The position numbers were made by a program, and so were the translations under genes. Shown piece by piece: positions 19,170 to 28,935 of a stretch of DNA of 64,000 nt. The stretch covers positions 124,001 through 188,000 of the forward strand of contig JAHBUX010000005.1 of the NCBI GenBank assembly GCA_019637855.1, read 5' to 3'. The stretch comes from Bdellovibrionales bacterium. Its GTDB lineage: Bacteria; Bdellovibrionota; Bdellovibrionia; Bdellovibrionales; UBA1609. Under the pieces are notes generated by a model. The model was not told where the DNA came from. It saw only the letters and a program-made list of their open reading frames with translations, and ran no database searches. The number at the start of each line of letters is the position of its first letter. Within the stretch, counting starts at the first letter, position 1.

Positions 19170-20690
19170 TCAATGGCGGAAATGGCGTTGCCCAGTGAGG
19201 ATAAGGTTTACGCCCAGGTCTTTGGCCCGACCAAGCACTTCCTCATCACGCATCGAGCCTCCCGGTTGAATCACCCAACGAATCCCCGCCTGATGAATCA
19301 GTTCAATCGAGTCCGGAAAGGGAAAGAAGGCGTCGCTCGCCAAGACCGGAGTCGAGGCCTGCGGATGAAATTTACGCATGCGACCGATCGCCAACTCCAC
19401 TGAGTCCACCCGGTTGGTTTGCCCCATGCCTAGACCTAAGGTCTGCTTGTTCTCGGCAATGGCGATGGCATTGCTTTTAAGAGCGGCCACTGCGGCCCAA
19501 GCGAAACTTAAATCGGAGCGCACTTGTGGTGAAGGGGCCGCGCCGTGAATCTTCCATTCCGGATTCCACAAGTGAACGTGATCCGGCTCTTGAATCAAGA
19601 AGCCCCCTTGAATGGTTTGAATGCGCCAGAAATCATCGCGGATACCCATGCCCTTCCATTCGAGCAAGCGTACGTTCTTCTTCTTCGCAAAGATTTGCAG
19701 CGCCTCCGGCGAATAGCTCGGTGCCACCACGCACTCGAGGAAAATCTTCGCGAGCGCTTCCGCCGCGCCCACCGTGACCGGCTGATTGACAGCCACGATG
19801 CCACCGAACACGCTGACTGGATCGGAGGTCAGGCATTTCTCGACAGCCGCATCCAGGGTTTCAGCGGTAGCCGCGCCACAGGGGTTGTTGTGTTTTACCG
19901 CCACAGCCGAGGGACCATCGAGATCGCGCACCAGCTGCAGAGCCGATTCAAGATCAAGCAGATTGTTATAAGAAAGCTCTTTGCCCTGTAGAATCTTAGC
20001 TTCGTGCCAACCGGCTTGAGCGCCACGGCGCTTGTACCAACTGGCTTTTTGGTGCGGGTTTTCCCCATAGCGCAAAGCTTGAATACGCGTTCCACCCAAA
20101 GAGAAGTTCGGAAACAACTGCTGTGGAGCCAGCGCTTGCGAAATCATGGCGTCATACGAACTGACGTGAGCAAAGGCCTTCGCCGCCAAACGCTGACGAT
20201 CGTCGAGAGAGATGTAATCCGTCTGCGCCAGATAAGCGTAGTCTTCCGGGTCGACAACAACGGTGATGCGTTCAAAATTTTTTGAAGCCCCACGCAACAG
20301 ACTGGGGCCGCCAATATCGATGTTCTCTATCAAATCGGCCTGCGAAGCGCGCGTCGCCAACGTTTGTTCAAAGGGGTAGAGGTTCACAATGATCAGATCG
20401 AAGGGCTCAAGGTCGTTCTCTTGCAGCAAGCGCATGTCCTCAGGGTGACTGTCGCGCGCCAAGAGGGGCATGTGGATATTGGGATGCAAGGTCTTTACCC
20501 GACCGTCCATAACCTCAGGAAATCCGGTCTGCTCAGACACGTCGATCACGCGCATACCGGCTTCACGCAGCGTGCGAGCCGTACCGCCGGTCGAGACCAA
20601 CCTCATCCCCTGCTCATACAATGGTTTGATAAAATCCACGAGACCGGTTTTGTCGGAGACACTGATCAAAGCGTTCTTAAATTTCGACAT
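19170..20690 (-). CDS. purH: Bifunctional AICAR transformylase / IMP cyclohydrolase
   Basis: A 506-residue protein of normal PurH length. The N-terminal cyclohydrolase (MGS-like) domain, about 1-190, has ISVSDKTG, STGGTARTLREAG and the VMDGRVKTLHP motif. The C-terminal transformylase domain, about 200-506, has LRYGENPHQKA, AVKHNNPCGAA, FGGIVAVN and the ending GQRHFRH. It carries out the last two steps of de novo IMP synthesis. It begins 12 nt after dltA and is probably in the same transcript, an unexpected place for a purine gene. Confidence 0.95.
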   Translation of the reverse strand: MSKFKNALISVSDKTGLVDFIKPLYEQGMRLVSTGGTARTLREAGMRVIDVSEQTGFPEVMDGRVKTLHPNIHMPLLARDSHPEDMRLLQENDLEPFDLIIVNLYPFEQTLATRASQADLIENIDIGGPSLLRGASKNFERITVVVDPEDYAYLAQTDYISLDDRQRLAAKAFAHVSSYDAMISQALAPQQLFPNFSLGGTRIQALRYGENPHQKASWYKRRGAQAGWHEAKILQGKELSYNNLLDLESALQLVRDLDGPSAVAVKHNNPCGAATAETLDAAVEKCLTSDPVSVFGGIVAVNQPVTVGAAEALAKIFLECVVAPSYSPEALQIFAKKKNVRLLEWKGMGIRDDFWRIQTIQGGFLIQEPDHVHLWNPEWKIHGAAPSPQVRSDLSFAWAAVAALKSNAIAIAENKQTLGLGMGQTNRVDSVELAIGRMRKFHPQASTPVLASDAFFPFPDSIELIHQAGIRWVIQPGGSMRDEEVLGRAKDLGVNLILTGQRHFRH

Positions 20691-20702
20691 GCGGCAGGCT
20701 TA

Positions 20703-22178
20703 TCACAGCCCCAAGATCTTGGCCAGCGCCACGCGATCCACTTTGTGGTTGGTGTTGTGCGGGATCTCGTCGATGCGCCGGAAGTCCGCCGGAATCATGT
20801 AGTACGGCAGCGTCTTGCCTAAATCCTCACGCACCCGATCAAGAACGTTGGCGGGCGCATCCGGCTTACATTTTACAAAGCACACCAGCTTCTTCACATC
20901 GCCGTCGCGCTGCAGACCGATGGTGGCGGCGGAGTCGACACCATGGACAGAGGCCACATGACTGTCGATTTCCTCCAGCTCAATGCGGTAGCCATGCAGC
21001 TTAATCTGTGAGTCGACACGGCCCTGATAAAACACCAGTCCATCTCTGTGGTAGCCCAAATCTCCAGTGAGATAGGCGCGTTGACCGTTTTTAGTGGCAA
21101 AGCGTGTTTGATTCAGATCGGGCCGGTTAAGGTATCCCGGCGAAACGTTGGCGCCCACAATCCACAGCTCGCCTTCACTCTCGCCGTCAGACGCCGTGGT
21201 GGGCATAGCGACGCCGGGCTTTACACGGCCGATCGGCACCGTCGGATATTTTTCGACGATTTCAGGTGTGACATGCACCAGAGTCGTGATCACCGTGGCT
21301 TCGGTAGGTCCATAGGCGTTCCACAGCTCACCGTTGGGAAAACGCTTCCAAAGGCGCTGCGCCAAGCTCTTGTGCACCACTTCGCCGGCCACATAAAAAC
21401 GGCGCAAACGCGGAAAGTTTTCGCCGTCAAAACCAGGCGCCGTTAGGGCCAAAGAAAGAAAGCTCGGCGTTGACGACCACACGGTCGGAGAATACCCCTC
21501 GGGCGCACCACTGAAGGGACGCGGGCGTTTAAGCTCATTCGGTGAGCTTAAAATCAGACAGGCGCCTGTTTGCAACGCGGATACCGTATCGAAAAATGAA
21601 ACGTCGAAAGAAAACGAGCATTGATTCAGAATCACATCTTCACGGCTGAAGGCGAAGTCGTCGGAGGTGGTCCACGCCGCCAGGTCATTCACATTGGCGC
21701 GTTGGATCTGAACACCTTTGGGTTCTCCGGAGCTTCCCGAGGTGAAAATGATGTAGGCCAAGTCATCGGCACCCTGCCAAGCCTCGGGCGCCGTCGCCTG
21801 ACCACTGAGCTCGAACTGCGGCACACTTAGACAGAAAGTGCCATCGACACGAGCGCCGGCCGGGCACAGCGCGAGAGTGCTGCCGGCAATCTGACGAATG
21901 GCTTGCACGCGCGCCGCAGGCACGATGGTGTCGATCGGAATGTAAGGCACGCGCGCTTGCAAGCAGGCCAATATGCAACTGATCATGCCCGCTTCTTTAT
22001 GACCGTAAATCAAAACGGGGTGTCCCTGCACTCGCTCGTGAGTGAGATGAGCGGCGATCTTAGCGCTCTCTTCCGCAAGCGCCGCCCAGGTCAGTTGGCG
22101 ATCGGTGCCGATCACGGCCAACGCCTCGCTTCGCGTTTGCATTTCCAACCATTTGCCGCTGTTGAAATCGAACTTCAT
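20703..22178 (-). CDS. dltA: D-alanine--carrier-protein ligase DltA
   Basis: A 491-residue adenylate-forming enzyme. Motifs in order: AYIIFTSGSSGEPKGV (about 141-156, ATP loop), NAYGPTEATV, GELWIVG, YLTGDLG, GRVDSQIKLHGYRIELEE, and the C-terminal Lys motif NHKVDRVAL. The length and motif variants fit DltA, which activates D-Ala as an adenylate and loads it on the phosphopantetheine of DltC in the cytoplasm. It starts 7 nt after dltB with a GAGG site, and the neighbours dltC, dltD, dltX and dltB settle the identity over other AMP-forming ligases. It is last of the dlt genes here, not near the front as in Firmicutes. Confidence 0.9.
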   Translation of the reverse strand: MKFDFNSGKWLEMQTRSEALAVIGTDRQLTWAALAEESAKIAAHLTHERVQGHPVLIYGHKEAGMISCILACLQARVPYIPIDTIVPAARVQAIRQIAGSTLALCPAGARVDGTFCLSVPQFELSGQATAPEAWQGADDLAYIIFTSGSSGEPKGVQIQRANVNDLAAWTTSDDFAFSREDVILNQCSFSFDVSFFDTVSALQTGACLILSSPNELKRPRPFSGAPEGYSPTVWSSTPSFLSLALTAPGFDGENFPRLRRFYVAGEVVHKSLAQRLWKRFPNGELWNAYGPTEATVITTLVHVTPEIVEKYPTVPIGRVKPGVAMPTTASDGESEGELWIVGANVSPGYLNRPDLNQTRFATKNGQRAYLTGDLGYHRDGLVFYQGRVDSQIKLHGYRIELEEIDSHVASVHGVDSAATIGLQRDGDVKKLVCFVKCKPDAPANVLDRVREDLGKTLPYYMIPADFRRIDEIPHNTNHKVDRVALAKILGL

Positions 22179-22185
22179 AAAAACC

Positions 22186-23361
22186 TCATCCTCTGAACGG
22201 CATACCGCTAAAAATAAACAAGGCCAACGCCGCCAGATGCACCATCAGCAAACGCGACAGCCACAGCTTGAGTCCACGAGTCGCAGGCGCACGCCCTTTT
22301 TGTTTAGCGTAGTAAACGAAAGTATTGTGCACGACGGAATAAATCCCGAAGAGAGCACCGCTGATGACAAACTGTTTGCGCGGGCCATTCCACAATCCCA
22401 TCAAAAGAAAAGTGAGGAACAGAGCGATGTTCTGTCGCATCAACGGTGAAAGCCCTGGCCAGCGTGCCGAGTGGCGATACAAAGGCTTAAAGAAGTAATC
22501 ACGCAGCCACTCACCCAGCGTGATATGAAAGCGGCGCCAGAAGTCCTGCGGATCACTGGCCAGAAAAGGCTTATTGAAGTTGACCGGCAAAGAGACACCC
22601 ACCAGTAGGGAAAACCCAATGGCCATGGCCGAGTAACCGGCAAAATCCAAATACAGATAGAGCGGATAACTGTAAAATGCCGCCACCCACTCACTCGCTC
22701 CGTTCAAGGTCCCAGGCAACCAATAGCGGCGAACGGCCTCGGCCAGAACGAATTTTTGCAATAGACCAAGCGCCAACCAGAAAGAAGCCTGCGGCCAAAA
22801 ATCCACCACCGGAGTTTTCCACGAAGCGAGCAGCGCCTCTTTGAACCGCGGCCAACGATCGATGGGACCCGCCAATAGCGCTGGAAAATAAAAAACGAAG
22901 AAAAACAGACGGCGAAAATTAAAGTCCACCAAGAGCGCGTCATCCATAAACAAATGAAAGGCGCGAAAGGTGGCGTAGGACAAACCCCAAAATTGCAACT
23001 CATGCACATTGTGCTTGAGTAAAAGTGGCAAAAGCAAAAGCGCGCCCTGAAGCCAGGTCCAACGCTTATCCCTCTTTCGCCACTGCAAAATCGCATAAAA
23101 CCATGTGGCCGAAAATACCAGTGCCAACGGATCGGGGAACAGCACAAGCAGATAGCCTGCGTTTAAGACCTGCAACAGCCCTAGCCACACACGCTCGCTT
23201 TTCAATCGACTCTTCAACAATCCCACGGCAAGGAAAAGTGGAATCAGAAAAACAAAGAACTCAAGACTCGAGTACGGCAGCCAGCGCAACAGGGAGAAAC
23301 TGGCGCCACCTTGCCACCCCAGAAGCCCACCCAAAACGGCTACGGCCAACCACACTCCCAC
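22186..23361 (-). CDS. dltB: MBOAT-family D-alanyl transfer protein DltB, Asn at the active-site His position
   Basis: A 391-residue polytopic inner-membrane protein of the MBOAT family. Family landmarks: LLAGPIDRW (163-170), YLYLDFAGYSAMAIG (about 235-249), PVNFNKPF (259-266), DPQDFWRRFHITLGEWLRDY (270-289) and MGLWNG (321-326). H279 in the RRFHITL motif is present. In MGLWHG-type motifs of DltB and other MBOATs the His is taken to be catalytic; here codon 325 (22387-22389) is AAT, Asn. DltB passes D-Ala from DltC across the membrane. The GTG start directly follows the dltX stop codon. Either this subfamily works with Asn or the protein is altered. Confidence 0.88.
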   Translation of the reverse strand: MGVWLAVAVLGGLLGWQGGASFSLLRWLPYSSLEFFVFLIPLFLAVGLLKSRLKSERVWLGLLQVLNAGYLLVLFPDPLALVFSATWFYAILQWRKRDKRWTWLQGALLLLPLLLKHNVHELQFWGLSYATFRAFHLFMDDALLVDFNFRRLFFFVFYFPALLAGPIDRWPRFKEALLASWKTPVVDFWPQASFWLALGLLQKFVLAEAVRRYWLPGTLNGASEWVAAFYSYPLYLYLDFAGYSAMAIGFSLLVGVSLPVNFNKPFLASDPQDFWRRFHITLGEWLRDYFFKPLYRHSARWPGLSPLMRQNIALFLTFLLMGLWNGPRKQFVISGALFGIYSVVHNTFVYYAKQKGRAPATRGLKLWLSRLLMVHLAALALFIFSGMPFRG

Positions 23362-23484
23362 TTAAAACTCCTGATACACAAAAGGTGTATTGGATTGCAG
23401 AGCCGGATTGGCGACGTAAAACCACAGCCAACCCAACGCTAGCGCAAAATAAAGCAGAAAGCGCAACCAGCGACTATTTCCCAT
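23362..23484 (-). CDS. dltX: DltX, small D-alanylation peptide (40 residues)
   Basis: A short gene between dltD and dltB. ATG at 23484-23482, 40 codons, TAA at 23364-23362, immediately followed by the GTG of dltB. The protein has a basic start (MGNSRWLR), one membrane helix (about residues 9-24) and ends in FVYQEF. Known DltX proteins are 40-50 residues, have one helix and end in FIYNEF or close variants, so the match is to both the architecture and the diagnostic tail. Its first 11 nt overlap the end of dltD, and an AAGAG site lies about 8 nt upstream. In Firmicutes DltX is needed for D-alanylation and works with DltB and DltD. Confidence 0.88.
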   Translation of the reverse strand: MGNSRWLRFLLYFALALGWLWFYVANPALQSNTPFVYQEF

Positions 23485-24577
23485 CGCACAACTCTTTTTG
23501 TAAGCGCACCCAGGCGTGATCGCTAAAGTGCGCGGCATCCGTCAACAGGGATAGATCGAAGGGTTCGGTAAAATAGCTTGTCCACTTGTGGCCGTCGGCC
23601 CGCAACTGAGCTTCGACCTCGGCAAACAAACGATCATGCTTGTCGAGCGGTGCATACACGCGGCGATGAATAGGTTGCATGATGAAATGCGCGCTCACTC
23701 CATGATCGTGCAAAAAACGGCTCAACGCCAACACGTCCTTTTTTTCGATTTGCCATGGGTCTAAGGGCGACGGTTTGTAAGGCGGATTGTATTTCTTGAT
23801 ACGATTGTAATATGCAGCGGTTGTACCCAGCGGATTGCCTTCGGCCTGATCGGTCAACGCCTTTTTGGTCTGCGCCAAGGCAGTGTCCCAATCGAAGTCT
23901 TTACTCAGTACGGCTGCTTCCGCCGTAACCTTGGTTATGCCAGGAAGCGGACCTTGCTCGGGAGCCAAACGCGCCAAAGCTGGCCATAACGGATAGAAGA
24001 AATCCGGATAGAGTCCCGTGAACTGCTCGCGATGCACGCGAATCTCGCGGGCGACAGTCGAGCGCACGGTCTCTGGCAGATCTGGCTGGCGCAGCAAGGT
24101 TGGCAAGGCATAGGGCGGTAGAATGCGCAAAAACGCATCGCTGGGTGTGCCCCGCTCAACAAACCATACCGGCGATAAAATAATAACGACCTGCGAATTC
24201 GGCGAAAGACTCTTGCGGGCTTGCGCCAAGGTCAACAAAATCGGCAGCGATTGAAAACCAGCTTGGCCCACCGCCAGCACCCGACGACCGCAAGCCATGG
24301 GATAAAAGTTCTGCAGAGCCTGCGGGCCATTGTTCGAAAGTTCGGAGGAACCGAACACCACAAGATCGCCACTGGACAGATTGTGCTCAAGGGCGATGCG
24401 AGTGGCCTCCGGATCGGCAGCGGGGCTCAAAATAAATTGTCCCGCCGGTAGGTGTAACTCTGCCGGCTGCACGGCGCGCGGAACTTTGGGGAGATAGTTG
24501 AATACCAGGCCGGCACAAACAAAGGCCGCGGCAATCAGTAGAAGTTCAGCTAGTAAAAAACGAAACGCACTCAACAC
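23474..24577 (-). CDS. dltD: D-alanyl transfer protein DltD
   Basis: A 367-residue protein with an N-terminal membrane anchor (about 5-28) and an extracytoplasmic SGNH-hydrolase-like domain. The nucleophile motif GSSEL is at residues 76-80, GQAGFQS follows at about 104, and the C-terminal acid/base region is LLTDAAHFSDHAW (Asp and His near 350-356). DltD is thought to move D-Ala to its final acceptor outside the cytoplasmic membrane. The GTG start overlaps the dltC stop by 7 nt and the end overlaps dltX by 11 nt. Which polymer or lipid is modified in this diderm is unknown. Confidence 0.88.
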   Translation of the reverse strand: MLSAFRFLLAELLLIAAAFVCAGLVFNYLPKVPRAVQPAELHLPAGQFILSPAADPEATRIALEHNLSSGDLVVFGSSELSNNGPQALQNFYPMACGRRVLAVGQAGFQSLPILLTLAQARKSLSPNSQVVIILSPVWFVERGTPSDAFLRILPPYALPTLLRQPDLPETVRSTVAREIRVHREQFTGLYPDFFYPLWPALARLAPEQGPLPGITKVTAEAAVLSKDFDWDTALAQTKKALTDQAEGNPLGTTAAYYNRIKKYNPPYKPSPLDPWQIEKKDVLALSRFLHDHGVSAHFIMQPIHRRVYAPLDKHDRLFAEVEAQLRADGHKWTSYFTEPFDLSLLTDAAHFSDHAWVRLQKELCDGK

Positions 24578-24822
24578 AGGTGATCGGAAATCTTACGGGC
24601 GATCTGTTCGACCGTGTTGAACTCGCGTTCATTGACCTGCTGTAGATCGATGGACACCTTCCACTGCTTTTCCAATTCGACAATCAGATCCACCACACCG
24701 ATGGAATCCAGAAGATTGGTGGAGATCAGCGGCTGATCACGCGTCACTTCGGTAAAAGTAATGCGCTTCACCAGGCTCTGGATCTGCGACTCGAGGTCGC
24801 TTAAGTTCACGTCATTCCGCAT
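24571..24822 (-). CDS. dltC: D-alanyl carrier protein DltC
   Basis: An acyl-carrier-protein-like protein of 83 residues if the ATG at 24822 is used. Upstream in-frame choices are an ATG at 24837 and a TTG at 24855; no strong ribosome-binding site decides between them, and 24822 gives the usual DltC length. The phosphopantetheine site is LLDSIG, with the Ser at residue 40. The C-terminal half (VDLIVELEKQWKVSID ... TVEQIARKI) is typical of DltC. It carries D-Ala as a thioester from DltA to DltB. It is the first dlt gene in the operon and lies about 58 nt after mlaD. Confidence 0.87.
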   Translation of the reverse strand: MRNDVNLSDLESQIQSLVKRITFTEVTRDQPLISTNLLDSIGVVDLIVELEKQWKVSIDLQQVNEREFNTVEQIARKISDHLC

Positions 24823-24880
24823 GACTTTCGATAGCATGCGCGCGATCTGATCCAAACTAATGACGCGTCGTATTGATTGT

Positions 24881-26227
24881 TTAGAAGGAGATTTTGGAAG
24901 CGAGCATCTTCAAGTCATCATTGGTGATGAAAATCCCCGCGCCAACGAAGGCGCTGGCACTGGTTTCACCCTTGCCGGCCAAGTTGTCACCGCCGCCGAC
25001 CACGTAGACTCCCTTAAAGAAGTTGTAGCGCACGAAGGCGCGAATCTGCAGCTCGTTGAAGTTAAAGAACTCGCTCGAGATGGTAAGGCTCTTGTCTGAC
25101 AACAAGTGATAGTCAAAGCCTACACCGCCGAAATTCTCAATGATCCCGCCCTTCACCGTCAGGTCCCAGAAGTTTTTGGCGAAGAGAGCGGTGAGCTTGA
25201 AATTGTTTTTGAACGTCTTGCGATAGGTGGCGTGACGTTGCACACCGTTTTCAACCGCATCCACGGACTCTTCACGCGTCACGCCGATGGAGTCCGAAAT
25301 CACCGCCACTTCATAGTAACGATCCAAGCCAGGCTGCAGTTTGATTCCGAGAAAGGACTTATTGTTGTCGTTGGCCATGAACTCGCTGTGGAAGTCGACG
25401 CTGGTCTGTAGTTTGTCGGCGCCGCCTAAGAACTTGTTCACGTTACTGATGGCGCTGTTGAGTTCTTCCACCGTTTGTTCGTCATTGACCAAGCGGCCCA
25501 GGGTGCCTTCGCCCTTGTTGATCTTGCCGGTGATCTCTTCGATGTTTTTGAGCGAGCGATCAACGCGCGCCAAGCTCTCTTCGTTGATGTAGGTGTCGAC
25601 GTTTTTCGACAGATTGCGGACGCGTTCGATGATCTCGTTGATTTTCTCTTTGTTTTCGCCGGTGACGTCGCGCAAGTCGGCCGTGATAGCCTCGATGTTG
25701 CCGATGATACGGCCCAGGCGCGTATCGTCGTTGCCCTCTTTAGTGGCGCGATTGAGCGTCTCCATTAGGTCATTCATACCCTTGGCGACCCGGCTCACTT
25801 CCACCATCAGATCATCAATGCCGCCCTTGTTGGGACCGACGTTCAGCTTTGAACCACTCTCGAGCTGAGGTTCCTCCGCATTCCCCGGAACCAGTTCGAT
25901 ATGCTTGTCCCCGAGGATACCGTCAGCTTTAAGCTGCACCTGTGTGCTCGGTGTAATACGCGCATTTTTGTCGACGTTGATCACGATGCGCGCCTGTCCG
26001 TCTTCCAAAATAATCTCTTTGATGGTGCCCATCTTGATGCCGGCCATTTTAACGGCGCTGTTTTGCACCAGTCCGCTGGCACTATCGACTTTGAATTCGT
26101 ATTGCCTGTGACCGCTGAACAGATTGGGACCCTCGGCCACTTTCAAAGCCATAACGCCAATCAAGCCGCTGACAACAACGACGAGAAAGCCGACTTTGAA
26201 TTCAGGAGTGCCGAGCCATGATGTCAT
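24881..26227 (-). CDS. mlaD: MlaD-family MCE protein with long C-terminal extension
   Basis: A 448-residue protein: one N-terminal membrane helix (about 10-29), an MCE domain (about 38-118, with SGLVQNSAVKMAGIKMGTI and LGDKHIELVPG), a long helical region (about 130-275), then about 170 residues rich in alternating aromatic and polar residues (295-448) that look beta-barrel-like (for example GVGFDYHLLSDKSLTISSEF, YVVGGGDNLAG). MlaD is the substrate-binding part of a phospholipid ABC transporter and normally stops at about 180-200 residues. The extension might reach or enter the outer membrane. It begins 10 nt after mlaF. Confidence 0.85.
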   Translation of the reverse strand: MTSWLGTPEFKVGFLVVVVSGLIGVMALKVAEGPNLFSGHRQYEFKVDSASGLVQNSAVKMAGIKMGTIKEIILEDGQARIVINVDKNARITPSTQVQLKADGILGDKHIELVPGNAEEPQLESGSKLNVGPNKGGIDDLMVEVSRVAKGMNDLMETLNRATKEGNDDTRLGRIIGNIEAITADLRDVTGENKEKINEIIERVRNLSKNVDTYINEESLARVDRSLKNIEEITGKINKGEGTLGRLVNDEQTVEELNSAISNVNKFLGGADKLQTSVDFHSEFMANDNNKSFLGIKLQPGLDRYYEVAVISDSIGVTREESVDAVENGVQRHATYRKTFKNNFKLTALFAKNFWDLTVKGGIIENFGGVGFDYHLLSDKSLTISSEFFNFNELQIRAFVRYNFFKGVYVVGGGDNLAGKGETSASAFVGAGIFITNDDLKMLASKISF

Positions 26228-26237
26228 TCGCGCTTGC

Positions 26238-27002
26238 TTACCCTTGCTTGAGGCCTTTGGACAGAAACTTCTGTATCAGCTCGTTGTCGGACGTGTGAAA
26301 TACATCCGGCGTACCAGCCAATAACACGCTGCCCTTATTTAGCATAACGATATAGTCACTGATACGGAAAGCCGCGAAAAGGTCGTGGGACACCACTATG
26401 GACGTCGATCCAGCATGGTTTTTATGAGTCGAGGCAATGAGATCATCCACCACTTCGGTCAAAATCGGATCAAGACCGGTCGTTGGTTCGTCATAGAGGA
26501 GGATCTCGGGATCAAGGGCCAGAGCGCGCGCCAAGCCAACACGCTTGCGCATCCCACCGCTGAGTTCGGCGGGAAGTTTGTTGAAGTGCTTCGACTCAAG
26601 TCCGACAGACTCAAGTTTACGAGCGGCAATTTCTGCCCACTGCGAAGGTCGCATATCTTTGCGATGTTCACGCAGCGGGAACTCGACGTTTTCCATCACA
26701 GTCATATCGTCGAAAAGCGCCGCATTCTGAAACAAAACTCCAAGACGTGTGCGCATTTTTATCAATTCATCGAGGGACATCTTCCAAAGGTCATGGCCCA
26801 GCACTTCCAAACGCCCAGAGGTAGGCCGAATAAGGCCAAGGATATGCTTCAAAAGAACGCTCTTACCCGTGCCCGAGAAACCGATGATGCAGGTGATCTT
26901 CCCTTTGGGAATGTCCAGGTTGAGGCCGTTGAGAATGTACTCTTTGCCGTCGAACGTTTTGCGCAGATCGCGGATATGAACGGCGGCGTTGTGAGTGATC
27001 AT
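26238..27002 (-). CDS. mlaF: Phospholipid ABC transporter ATPase MlaF
   Basis: A 254-residue ABC ATPase. Walker A GFSGTGKS at 41-48, Q-loop in VLFQNAALF, signature LSGGMRKRVGLARAL at about 148-162, Walker B LLYDEPTTGLDP and the switch His in IVVSHD. The LSGGMRKR form and the neighbours mlaE and mlaD identify the MlaF/Ttg2A group, which energises lipid movement between inner and outer membrane. ATG overlaps the mlaE stop by 4 nt. MlaB, MlaC and MlaA are not encoded nearby. Confidence 0.92.
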   Translation of the reverse strand: MITHNAAVHIRDLRKTFDGKEYILNGLNLDIPKGKITCIIGFSGTGKSVLLKHILGLIRPTSGRLEVLGHDLWKMSLDELIKMRTRLGVLFQNAALFDDMTVMENVEFPLREHRKDMRPSQWAEIAARKLESVGLESKHFNKLPAELSGGMRKRVGLARALALDPEILLYDEPTTGLDPILTEVVDDLIASTHKNHAGSTSIVVSHDLFAAFRISDYIVMLNKGSVLLAGTPDVFHTSDNELIQKFLSKGLKQG

Positions 27003-27841
27003 TTCCAGCCCATGGCGACGTAATAAAAGCGAATGAAGTTGGTCATGAAGAAATTCAAAATGATGATCAGAACCATGCTGTTGACCACTCCCTGGTTGGT
27101 TGCCTCACCGACACCCTTGGCTCCACCGCTGGCCATAAAACCACGGTTCGTGCACACAGCGGCGAAAGTCACCCCGAATACAGCAGCCTTGATCAAGCCC
27201 TGATAGATGTCACCGGGATTTAACCACAGCGAAATCTTGTCCCAAAAAACCGCCTGGTCCAGTTTCAACACGTTGATGCACAAGAAGTGCGAGCCCATCA
27301 TGGCAATAAAATCAAAAATTGCACAAAGCAACGGCACTACAACCACCGCCGCAATGATGCGTGGAGCGACCAGATATTGCTTGGGATCAACGCCCATTAC
27401 TTCGAGCGCGTCAATTTGTTCAGAGACCCGCATTGTGCCGAGTCGCGCAGCCATAGCGCCGCCGGCTCGTGCCGCCACCAGAAGACCTGTGAGCACGGGT
27501 CCGAGCTCACGTGTAATCCCCATGCCCACCGTGGGGCCGACGAGGTTGGTGGCATTGACAAGATTGAAACCAAGATAGATTTGAAATGAAAGGGCCAAGC
27601 CGGTGAACACGCTGGTCATGGCTATAATCAACACTGATTTATTTCCGATAAATTCCATATGGCGCACGATCTCTTCGAAACGATACGGAGGCTTAAACGC
27701 TAAGCGTACCGATTCAGCGAAGAAGATGCAGCCACGACCGGCGTCGCAGAACAGCTCATAGATGTTTTGTCCGATACGAATGAAAAATCCATCGATGGCT
27801 TCATTCACTCGCTCGCGATTTCTTGTCCATACTTCGATCAT
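26999..27841 (-). CDS. mlaE: Phospholipid ABC transporter permease MlaE
   Basis: A 280-residue inner-membrane permease with about five to six membrane helices. Family hallmarks are GMGITRELGPVLTGLLVAARAGGAMAA (about 126-152), RVSEQIDALEVMGVDP (about 158-173) and the ending FFMTNFIRFYYVAMGW. It forms the membrane channel of the MlaEFD complex. The ATG overlaps the alr stop by 4 nt, which couples lipid-transporter translation to alanine racemase. Confidence 0.92.
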   Translation of the reverse strand: MIEVWTRNRERVNEAIDGFFIRIGQNIYELFCDAGRGCIFFAESVRLAFKPPYRFEEIVRHMEFIGNKSVLIIAMTSVFTGLALSFQIYLGFNLVNATNLVGPTVGMGITRELGPVLTGLLVAARAGGAMAARLGTMRVSEQIDALEVMGVDPKQYLVAPRIIAAVVVVPLLCAIFDFIAMMGSHFLCINVLKLDQAVFWDKISLWLNPGDIYQGLIKAAVFGVTFAAVCTNRGFMASGGAKGVGEATNQGVVNSMVLIIILNFFMTNFIRFYYVAMGWK

Positions 27842-28935
27842 ACGGCCTCTCGCGGTACTCGCCGGGAAATCGACGTTACAATTTCGTAGGCGATGGTGCC
27901 CACCTTGTCGGCGATGTCTTGAGCATGAATCGTCTCACGGCCCTGACGACCAAGCATAACGACGGGTTCACCCCGCTTGGCTTCGCCTTCTTTTTGCGCA
28001 TCGGTTAAGTCGATAAAGATGTAGTCCATGCAGACGCCGCCCACAACAGGAACTCTTTGCCCGCGAAACAACGCCTCGCCCTTATTGCCCAAATTGCGCA
28101 TGTACCCATCGGCGTAGCCCATGGGCAAAACGGCGATGGTGGATCGACGAGGTGCAGTCCACTGTCCCGAGTAGCCGACGTTTTCACCCTTCTCCACCTG
28201 ATGCAGGTCGACGATCTCGGTCGACCAGGTCAGCACCGGCTTTAACCCTTCGCCGGTCGCCCGGCCTTCGTAAGGCAAACCATACATGCCTATTCCGGGA
28301 CGCGCGCCAAACTCACGCGCTTTCTCTTTGAGGACTGCAAGACTGGCACTTTTGTGTAGATGTCGGAGGCCGGGAAGGCCGTGGCTCATGTCTTTGAAGC
28401 GAGTGATCTGTTGTGCAGTCGGTCCGCTGAGAGAGGCGGCATCCTCTCCATGCGTGAGATGTGTGCACACGCCTTCCACTTTCAGGAAGGAAAGCTCTTT
28501 GAGGCGCGCGTGCAGCCGCGGCAGATCCTGCTTGTCAAAACCCAGACGCTGCATCCCGGTATTCAGCTTGACGTGCACATTGACCTCTCGCGGGCTGACT
28601 TTTTGTAAGGCCTCCAGATCGCGAAAGCGGCCCACCACAGGCGTGAGATGATGCTCCATCATGATTTTCATGGCATCGGCCTCGAACGAGGCGAACACCA
28701 AGATCGGTAACTGCACACCGTTTTGGCGCAGACGCAAGCCCTCTTCGATCAAGGCCACACCGACAGCGTCGGCCTTCGCCTTTTCCGCCTCTTTGGCGAT
28801 CAGGATTTCATCATGACCATAGGCATTGGCCTTTACCATCGGGCAAAAGAAACCGCTTCCCGTCCAGCCCTTAAGCACGGCGAGGTTGTGTTGCAGTGCC
28901 GAGGTGTCGATGCGGACCTTTGTCGGCCGATACAT
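27838..28935 (-). CDS. alr: Alanine racemase
   Basis: A 365-residue PLP enzyme that interconverts L- and D-alanine. The PLP Lys is K35 in MVKANAYGH, the second catalytic residue Tyr is Y255 in VGYSGQW, and the substrate-binding segments THLTHGED, RPGIGMYG and MDYIFIDLTD are present. The D-Ala made here serves peptidoglycan and, given the dlt genes downstream in the same operon, could directly feed DltA. Its ATG overlaps the GGDEF stop by 1 nt (TAATG). Confidence 0.93.
   Translation of the reverse strand: MYRPTKVRIDTSALQHNLAVLKGWTGSGFFCPMVKANAYGHDEILIAKEAEKAKADAVGVALIEEGLRLRQNGVQLPILVFASFEADAMKIMMEHHLTPVVGRFRDLEALQKVSPREVNVHVKLNTGMQRLGFDKQDLPRLHARLKELSFLKVEGVCTHLTHGEDAASLSGPTAQQITRFKDMSHGLPGLRHLHKSASLAVLKEKAREFGARPGIGMYGLPYEGRATGEGLKPVLTWSTEIVDLHQVEKGENVGYSGQWTAPRRSTIAVLPMGYADGYMRNLGNKGEALFRGQRVPVVGGVCMDYIFIDLTDAQKEGEAKRGEPVVMLGRQGRETIHAQDIADKVGTIAYEIVTSISRRVPREAV

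Follow-up and report, generated by a model that had tools for sequence, protein, structure and literature searches.

The question raised by this locus is whether the short interval between dltD and dltB, in the dlt operon of a Bdellovibrionales bacterium, carries a gene of its own, and what the product of such a gene would do in a diderm cell. The whole stretch analysed, referred to as the window, comprises 64,000 nt, and the operon lies on its minus strand. The original prediction had placed in the interval a 40-codon gene, read as dltX.

A small gene between dltD and dltB

The operon contains, in order, dltC (24822-24571), dltD (24577-23474), dltX (23484-23362), dltB (23361-22186) and dltA (22178-20703). 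dltC, whose ORF is open to 24855, encodes a carrier protein with a DSI phosphopantetheine site (PF00550, E 1e-4; best NCBIfam match NF003464 DltC, below cut-off). The dltD product is a SGNH-type transferase with a N-terminal membrane helix and the GSSE and DxxH motifs (PF04914, E 4e-30; aligned to DltD 6o93). The 391 aa product of dltB fits the MBOAT acyltransferase model PF03062 (E 8e-12, 45.5 bits for a cut-off of 27), and dltA encodes an amino-acid:carrier ligase (TIGR01734, E 2e-117, below cut-off; DltA 3e7w, E 2e-91). All four, DltA, DltB, DltC and DltD, score below the NCBIfam equivalog cut-offs; for DltB, the model TIGR04091 gives E 3e-60 and 204 bits, against a cut-off of 375. The cassette is bordered by purH downstream (19170-20690, minus strand) and by a mlaD-type gene upstream (24881-26227, minus strand), both defined by synteny with relatives and considered as context, outside the system.

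An intact reading frame, composed of ATG, 39 further codons and TAA, extends from 23484 to 23362 and encodes a 40 aa microprotein, MGNSRWLRFLLYFALALGWLWFYVANPALQSNTPFVYQEF. With dltD ending at 23474 and the dltB GTG at 23361, the interval measures 112 nt, as previously assigned. The first 11 nt of dltX are shared with the end of dltD. Its TAA (23364-23362) abuts the GTG, as had been described, and lies in the same frame. The longest ORF in the dltX frame begins 18 codons upstream, inside dltD; the 40-codon start agrees in length with the homologues. The expected FVYQEF ending is found immediately before the stop (codons 35-40, 23365-23382, minus strand; Tyr37 codon at 23374-23376). An AGGAG, by sequence reading a Shine-Dalgarno-like site for dltB, is located at 23368-23372 on the minus strand, within the Gln-Glu codons of the tail and 6 nt before the GTG. 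This GTG likely is the dltB start; other dltB genes start about 25 codons further in. A single membrane helix is predicted at residues 3-25 of the microprotein, whose length fits the range of about 40-50 aa, and a N-in/C-out topology is inferred from the positive-inside rule (Arg5, Arg8). The six reading frames of the window contain 921 ORFs of 20 aa or more, and two of these end in FxYxxF, dltX and one of 21 codons.

Conservation was evaluated in two samples. The first was obtained by scanning genomes with the window DltB and consists of 80 named loci; in four the contig stops at dltB, which leaves 76 with intact upstream sequence. In all 76, distributed among Bacteroidota/Chlorobiota, Campylobacterota and Enterobacterales, a small ORF ending in [FY]xYxxF follows dltD and immediately precedes dltB, and in one of the truncated loci (L053) the ending ...TVEFVYEAF* is still visible. 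The tail varies by group, being ...FVYQQF in Bacteroidota and Chlorobiota, ...FVYEAF in Arcobacteraceae, ...FEYQKF in Enterobacterales and ...YEYQQF in Photorhabdus; the microprotein of a congener (G003, locus L003) ends in ...FVYQQF. The second sample was drawn with TIGR04091, a family model, applied at a threshold of E<=1e-50 to 694 genomes (398 and 296, from the phyla of loci L063 and L032), and the peptide is present in 7 of 7 Dlt-type loci, although species may overlap with those of the first sample. F35, Y37 and F40 are the only invariant positions in 25 aligned diderm peptides. The median pairwise dN/dS of dltX is 0.12 over 46 loci with enterobacterial-type sequence, 41 of them distinct, which indicates purifying selection on the enterobacterial gene. 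The ORF at 23362-23484 is a real gene, a point settled by its conservation in relatives: every testable related dlt operon carries the small ORF with its tyrosine tail, free of the frameshifts that would have spoken against the original prediction.

Relation of the peptide to DltX

The window peptide resembles Firmicute DltX (PF12459; Listeria locus L113; Bacillus thuringiensis, PMC5541007) in being a small single helix with a C-terminal FxYxxF, encoded in a dlt operon. The two differ in the tail, FIYNEF in Firmicutes and FVYQEF in the window, and in the position of the gene, which precedes dltA in Firmicutes and lies between dltD and dltB here. The gene order itself is X-A-B-C-D in Firmicute dlt and D-X-B-A in the core of the window operon, a difference on which the original prediction was silent. 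The latter order is shared with the operons of Dickeya and Pectobacterium, likewise of diderm hosts; in the window, however, dltC comes first, sequence identity to these operons is low and DltB falls elsewhere in the tree.

A search with PF12459, proposed at the outset as a check, did not retrieve the window peptide at E<=1, nor at E<=10, which leaves it outside the Pfam family as bounded by the gathering cut-off of 25 bits. NCBIfam also gave no match, and a PDB sequence search returned helix matches to PsbY only, which are meaningless. Elsewhere in the same genome, one sub-threshold PF12459 match, inside a 622-aa frame, was discarded as unrelated. The model scored the Listeria DltX, used as positive control, at 57.1 bits. 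Among 25 diderm homologues, weak matches were obtained for 7 (best E 4.6e-4); when six homologues were rescored singly, one matched, at 18.1 bits.

The window peptide nevertheless carries the protein-terminal FxYxxF (FVYQEF*) typical of the function, and diderm and Firmicute DltX alignments, compared with hhalign, matched with a probability of 91.8% and a score of 31.3. After removal of the six-residue tail from both alignments the values were 80.6% and 24.6, while 40 column shuffles, with the tail kept, scored 13.6 on average and 21.4 at most. By this profile-profile comparison the diderm family is linked to Firmicute DltX beyond the tail. Since position, partners, motif and profile agree, the window peptide most likely is a DltX-type shuttle outside the present Pfam family, in line with the original prediction. 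The homologue from Klebsiella electrica bears the RefSeq label 'hypothetical protein'. The soft-rot enterobacterial operon was reportedly named dltDXBAC by Pandin et al. in 2016, a study cited in PMC5541007; DltX has probably already been reported in enterobacterial dlt operons, and the window gene is therefore presented as a new member.

The DltB active site and the proposed acyl shuttle

Streptococcus thermophilus DltB (6bug, 8jem) has the same fold as the window DltB and is its best PDB match, both by alignment (6bug, E 1e-34) and by Foldseek with the predicted fold (8jem/6bug). His279 (22525-22527, minus strand) aligns with His289 and is His in 82 of 82 diderm DltBs. The positions of His336 and Tyr345 are instead occupied by Asn325 (22387-22389, minus strand) and Ser334 (22360-22362, minus strand), likewise in all 82; in five Firmicute DltBs the three sites read His/His/Tyr, and the second is His in 29 other MBOATs. 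His336 has been called an invariant active residue, with Tyr345 in the active site (PMC11035591), and the conserved MBOAT histidine, required in DltB and PatA, is regarded as universal (PMC12148441); the window protein lacks it. The loci of the first sample were chosen by similarity to the window DltB, with patterns that exclude the Asn325 site, one of them lying near it. In the second sample WNG is found in 7 of 7 Dlt-type loci, and WH at the same site in the other 53. The WNG DltBs fall on one side of a branch supported at 100/99, whose bootstrap is not fully settled. No paper noting the replacement of His by Asn in DltB was found in the open-licence literature.

The WNG clade is probably active, as a dltB mutant of Dickeya dadantii lost survival to polymyxin (PMC3544676) and the Dickeya DltBs examined (L077, L097) are of the WNG type. 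With Asn in place of His and Ser in place of Tyr, the loading step would probably depend on His279, which is retained, or on other groups.

In Firmicute Dlt and in PatA, the acyl group is placed by the MBOAT on the Tyr residue of a hexapeptide at a C-terminus, and passes from there to the SGNH serine; the hexapeptide is carried by DltX in Dlt and fused to the MBOAT in PatA-type systems (PMC12148441). The PatA/AlgI-type MBOATs thus share the tyrosine chemistry of DltX (PMC12148441), but differ from the window system in the fused motif, in the acyl-CoA donor and in retaining WHG. In relatives devoid of dlt, most MBOATs terminate in a motif like FIYFRF. The window DltB, like other diderm DltBs, ends shortly after FSG with no fused C-terminal motif, and a separate shuttle is therefore needed. 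No second MBOAT was seen in the genome (G000) at E<=1e-10.

The gene and its conservation, its operon shared with dltA, dltB, dltC and dltD, the invariant tyrosine motif and the carrier, ligase and SGNH motifs of the partners are established, and a scheme of the Firmicute kind can be proposed on this ground. The amino acid activated by DltA and loaded on DltC would most likely be alanine. DltB would move the aminoacyl group from DltC across the membrane onto Tyr37 of DltX, a single-pass peptide with the N-terminus inside and the C-terminus outside, which would act as an acyl shuttle and hand the group to the DltD serine. The polymer then esterified by DltD would belong to the envelope and would probably be lipopolysaccharide or a different periplasmic glycan, rather than teichoic acid. 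It is highly probable that the gene is the dltX of a diderm Dlt-type operon and that its product works as proposed. The wider notion of a Dlt clade extending across diderms, in which the tyrosine shuttle is combined with a re-built MBOAT site, transfer depends on His279 or on the substrate itself, the Asn/His arrangement is the reverse of that of animal MBOATs and the acceptor lies in the Gram-negative envelope, may equally well prove right or wrong. When DltX and DltB were modelled as a single chain, with the TAA read through, AlphaFold returned a mean pLDDT of 83 with DltB well predicted, but residues 28-63, including the DltX tail and the linker, remained below 50; for this reason no docking is claimed.

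Other explanations were weighed against this scheme. That the ORF is a chance frame, or a spacer for dltD-dltB translational coupling with no product of its own, is suggested by its 40 codons, by the failure to match any Pfam or NCBIfam family and by the dltB ribosome-binding site within the tail codons; yet every testable relative, in several phyla, has the same frame and tail, dN/dS is low, and the spacing between dltX and dltB differs among relatives while the peptide is retained, so that this reading is extremely improbable. A structural role, in which the microprotein would join DltB to DltD, the Tyr would stay unacylated and DltB, deprived of the catalytic His, would perform a different reaction, draws on the fact that Asn325 and Ser334, invariant in the 82 sequences, take the place of two residues that surround the inhibitor site of DltB. 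It is considered improbable: Tyr37 and its flanking Phe residues are what the peptide keeps unchanged, and the Dickeya dadantii phenotype (PMC3544676) indicates that WNG-type DltBs function.

A Dlt-like system with a cargo other than D-alanine, such as L-alanine, glycine or another amino acid, is a less remote, though still unlikely, alternative. Cys269, a main determinant of D-Ala selectivity in DltA (PMC4176424), is replaced by Ala in the window and by Ile or Met in most diderm DltAs, so that the window ligase lacks this mark of D-alanine specificity; in addition, other split-shuttle loci, described below, lie beside FkbH-like or decarboxylase-like genes, which suggest other cargoes. Against it, the equivalent of the amino-group residue Asp197 is kept in all DltAs, the best NCBIfam match of the window ligase is DltA, Cys269 is kept in the congener and in Arcobacter, and Bacillus cereus DltA C269A still prefers D-Ala, albeit less strictly (PMC4176424).

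Acceptor, origin and related loci

LpxC is present in the genome, while the teichoic acid polymerase PF04464, the only teichoic acid family searched, is absent from it. Teichoic acid is for these reasons not favoured, and LPS or another periplasmic molecule is the more likely acceptor, as inferred from gene content. The upstream alanine racemase was considered as a dlt-linked supplier and rejected, as the alr-mlaEFD-purH backbone is also found in relatives lacking dlt.

The order alr-mlaE-mlaF-mlaD-purH-TPR is unbroken in five relatives (G006, G007, G008, G010 and G037), in which mlaD and purH, the genes flanking the dlt cassette in the window, are adjacent. The same backbone spans 19170-28935 of the window, and the contents of the junction vary within the genus; in the congener G001, other genes are found there. 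Of the 369 genomes of the phylum, three contain a Dlt-type DltB at E<=1e-35; the layout differs in one of the three (G074). In the DltB tree the window groups with G003 (99/94), and the pair is placed close to Arcobacteraceae, though support for this is modest (84/72). The cassette was likely gained horizontally.

Clusters reminiscent of a split shuttle were also observed outside typical dlt operons. In a genome of the same order (G051; L121, 3884-9676), FkbH-like, carrier-like and SGNH-like genes are clustered with a 43-aa microprotein ending in FIYERF and a WHG-type MBOAT. This is probably a MBOAT system supplied by a carrier, which does not belong to Dlt but has a separate DltX-like shuttle, and whose cargo is perhaps glyceryl. 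In G074 (same phylum; L118, 4541-8611) one cluster comprises an AMP ligase, a SGNH-like gene, a WHG-type MBOAT followed by a 35-aa peptide ending in FQYEF, and a carrier. A third locus (G455; L203, 4937-10974) includes a decarboxylase-like gene, an AMP ligase, a possible SGNH gene, a 47-aa microprotein ending in FRYAGF and a WHG-type MBOAT; as this is another split shuttle, separate microproteins also occur outside Dlt. Two enterobacterial-type records may also be mentioned. One, titled Chryseobacterium (L080, CACSKA010000011.1), carries an enterobacterial-type dlt operon whose DltB groups with Enterobacterales, which suggests that the record is mislabelled or contaminated. The other, a Klebsiella electrica plasmid (L112, NZ_CP041250.1), contains a complete dltDXBAC flanked by insertion-sequence transposases and is a possible vehicle for spread.

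The combination of dltX with the altered DltB marks a diderm variant of Dlt. DltX-type microproteins generally accompany Gram-negative Dlt operons, yet they are missed by the DltX family model, so that the key acyl carrier escapes any annotation or screen that relies on PF12459. A large clade in which the tyrosine shuttle is kept and the 'universally conserved' His is gone, and in which one tested genus, at least, has a functional system, is a natural test of MBOAT chemistry, and deletion of dltX offers a way to approach the acceptor in bacteria which have LPS and apparently no teichoic acid.
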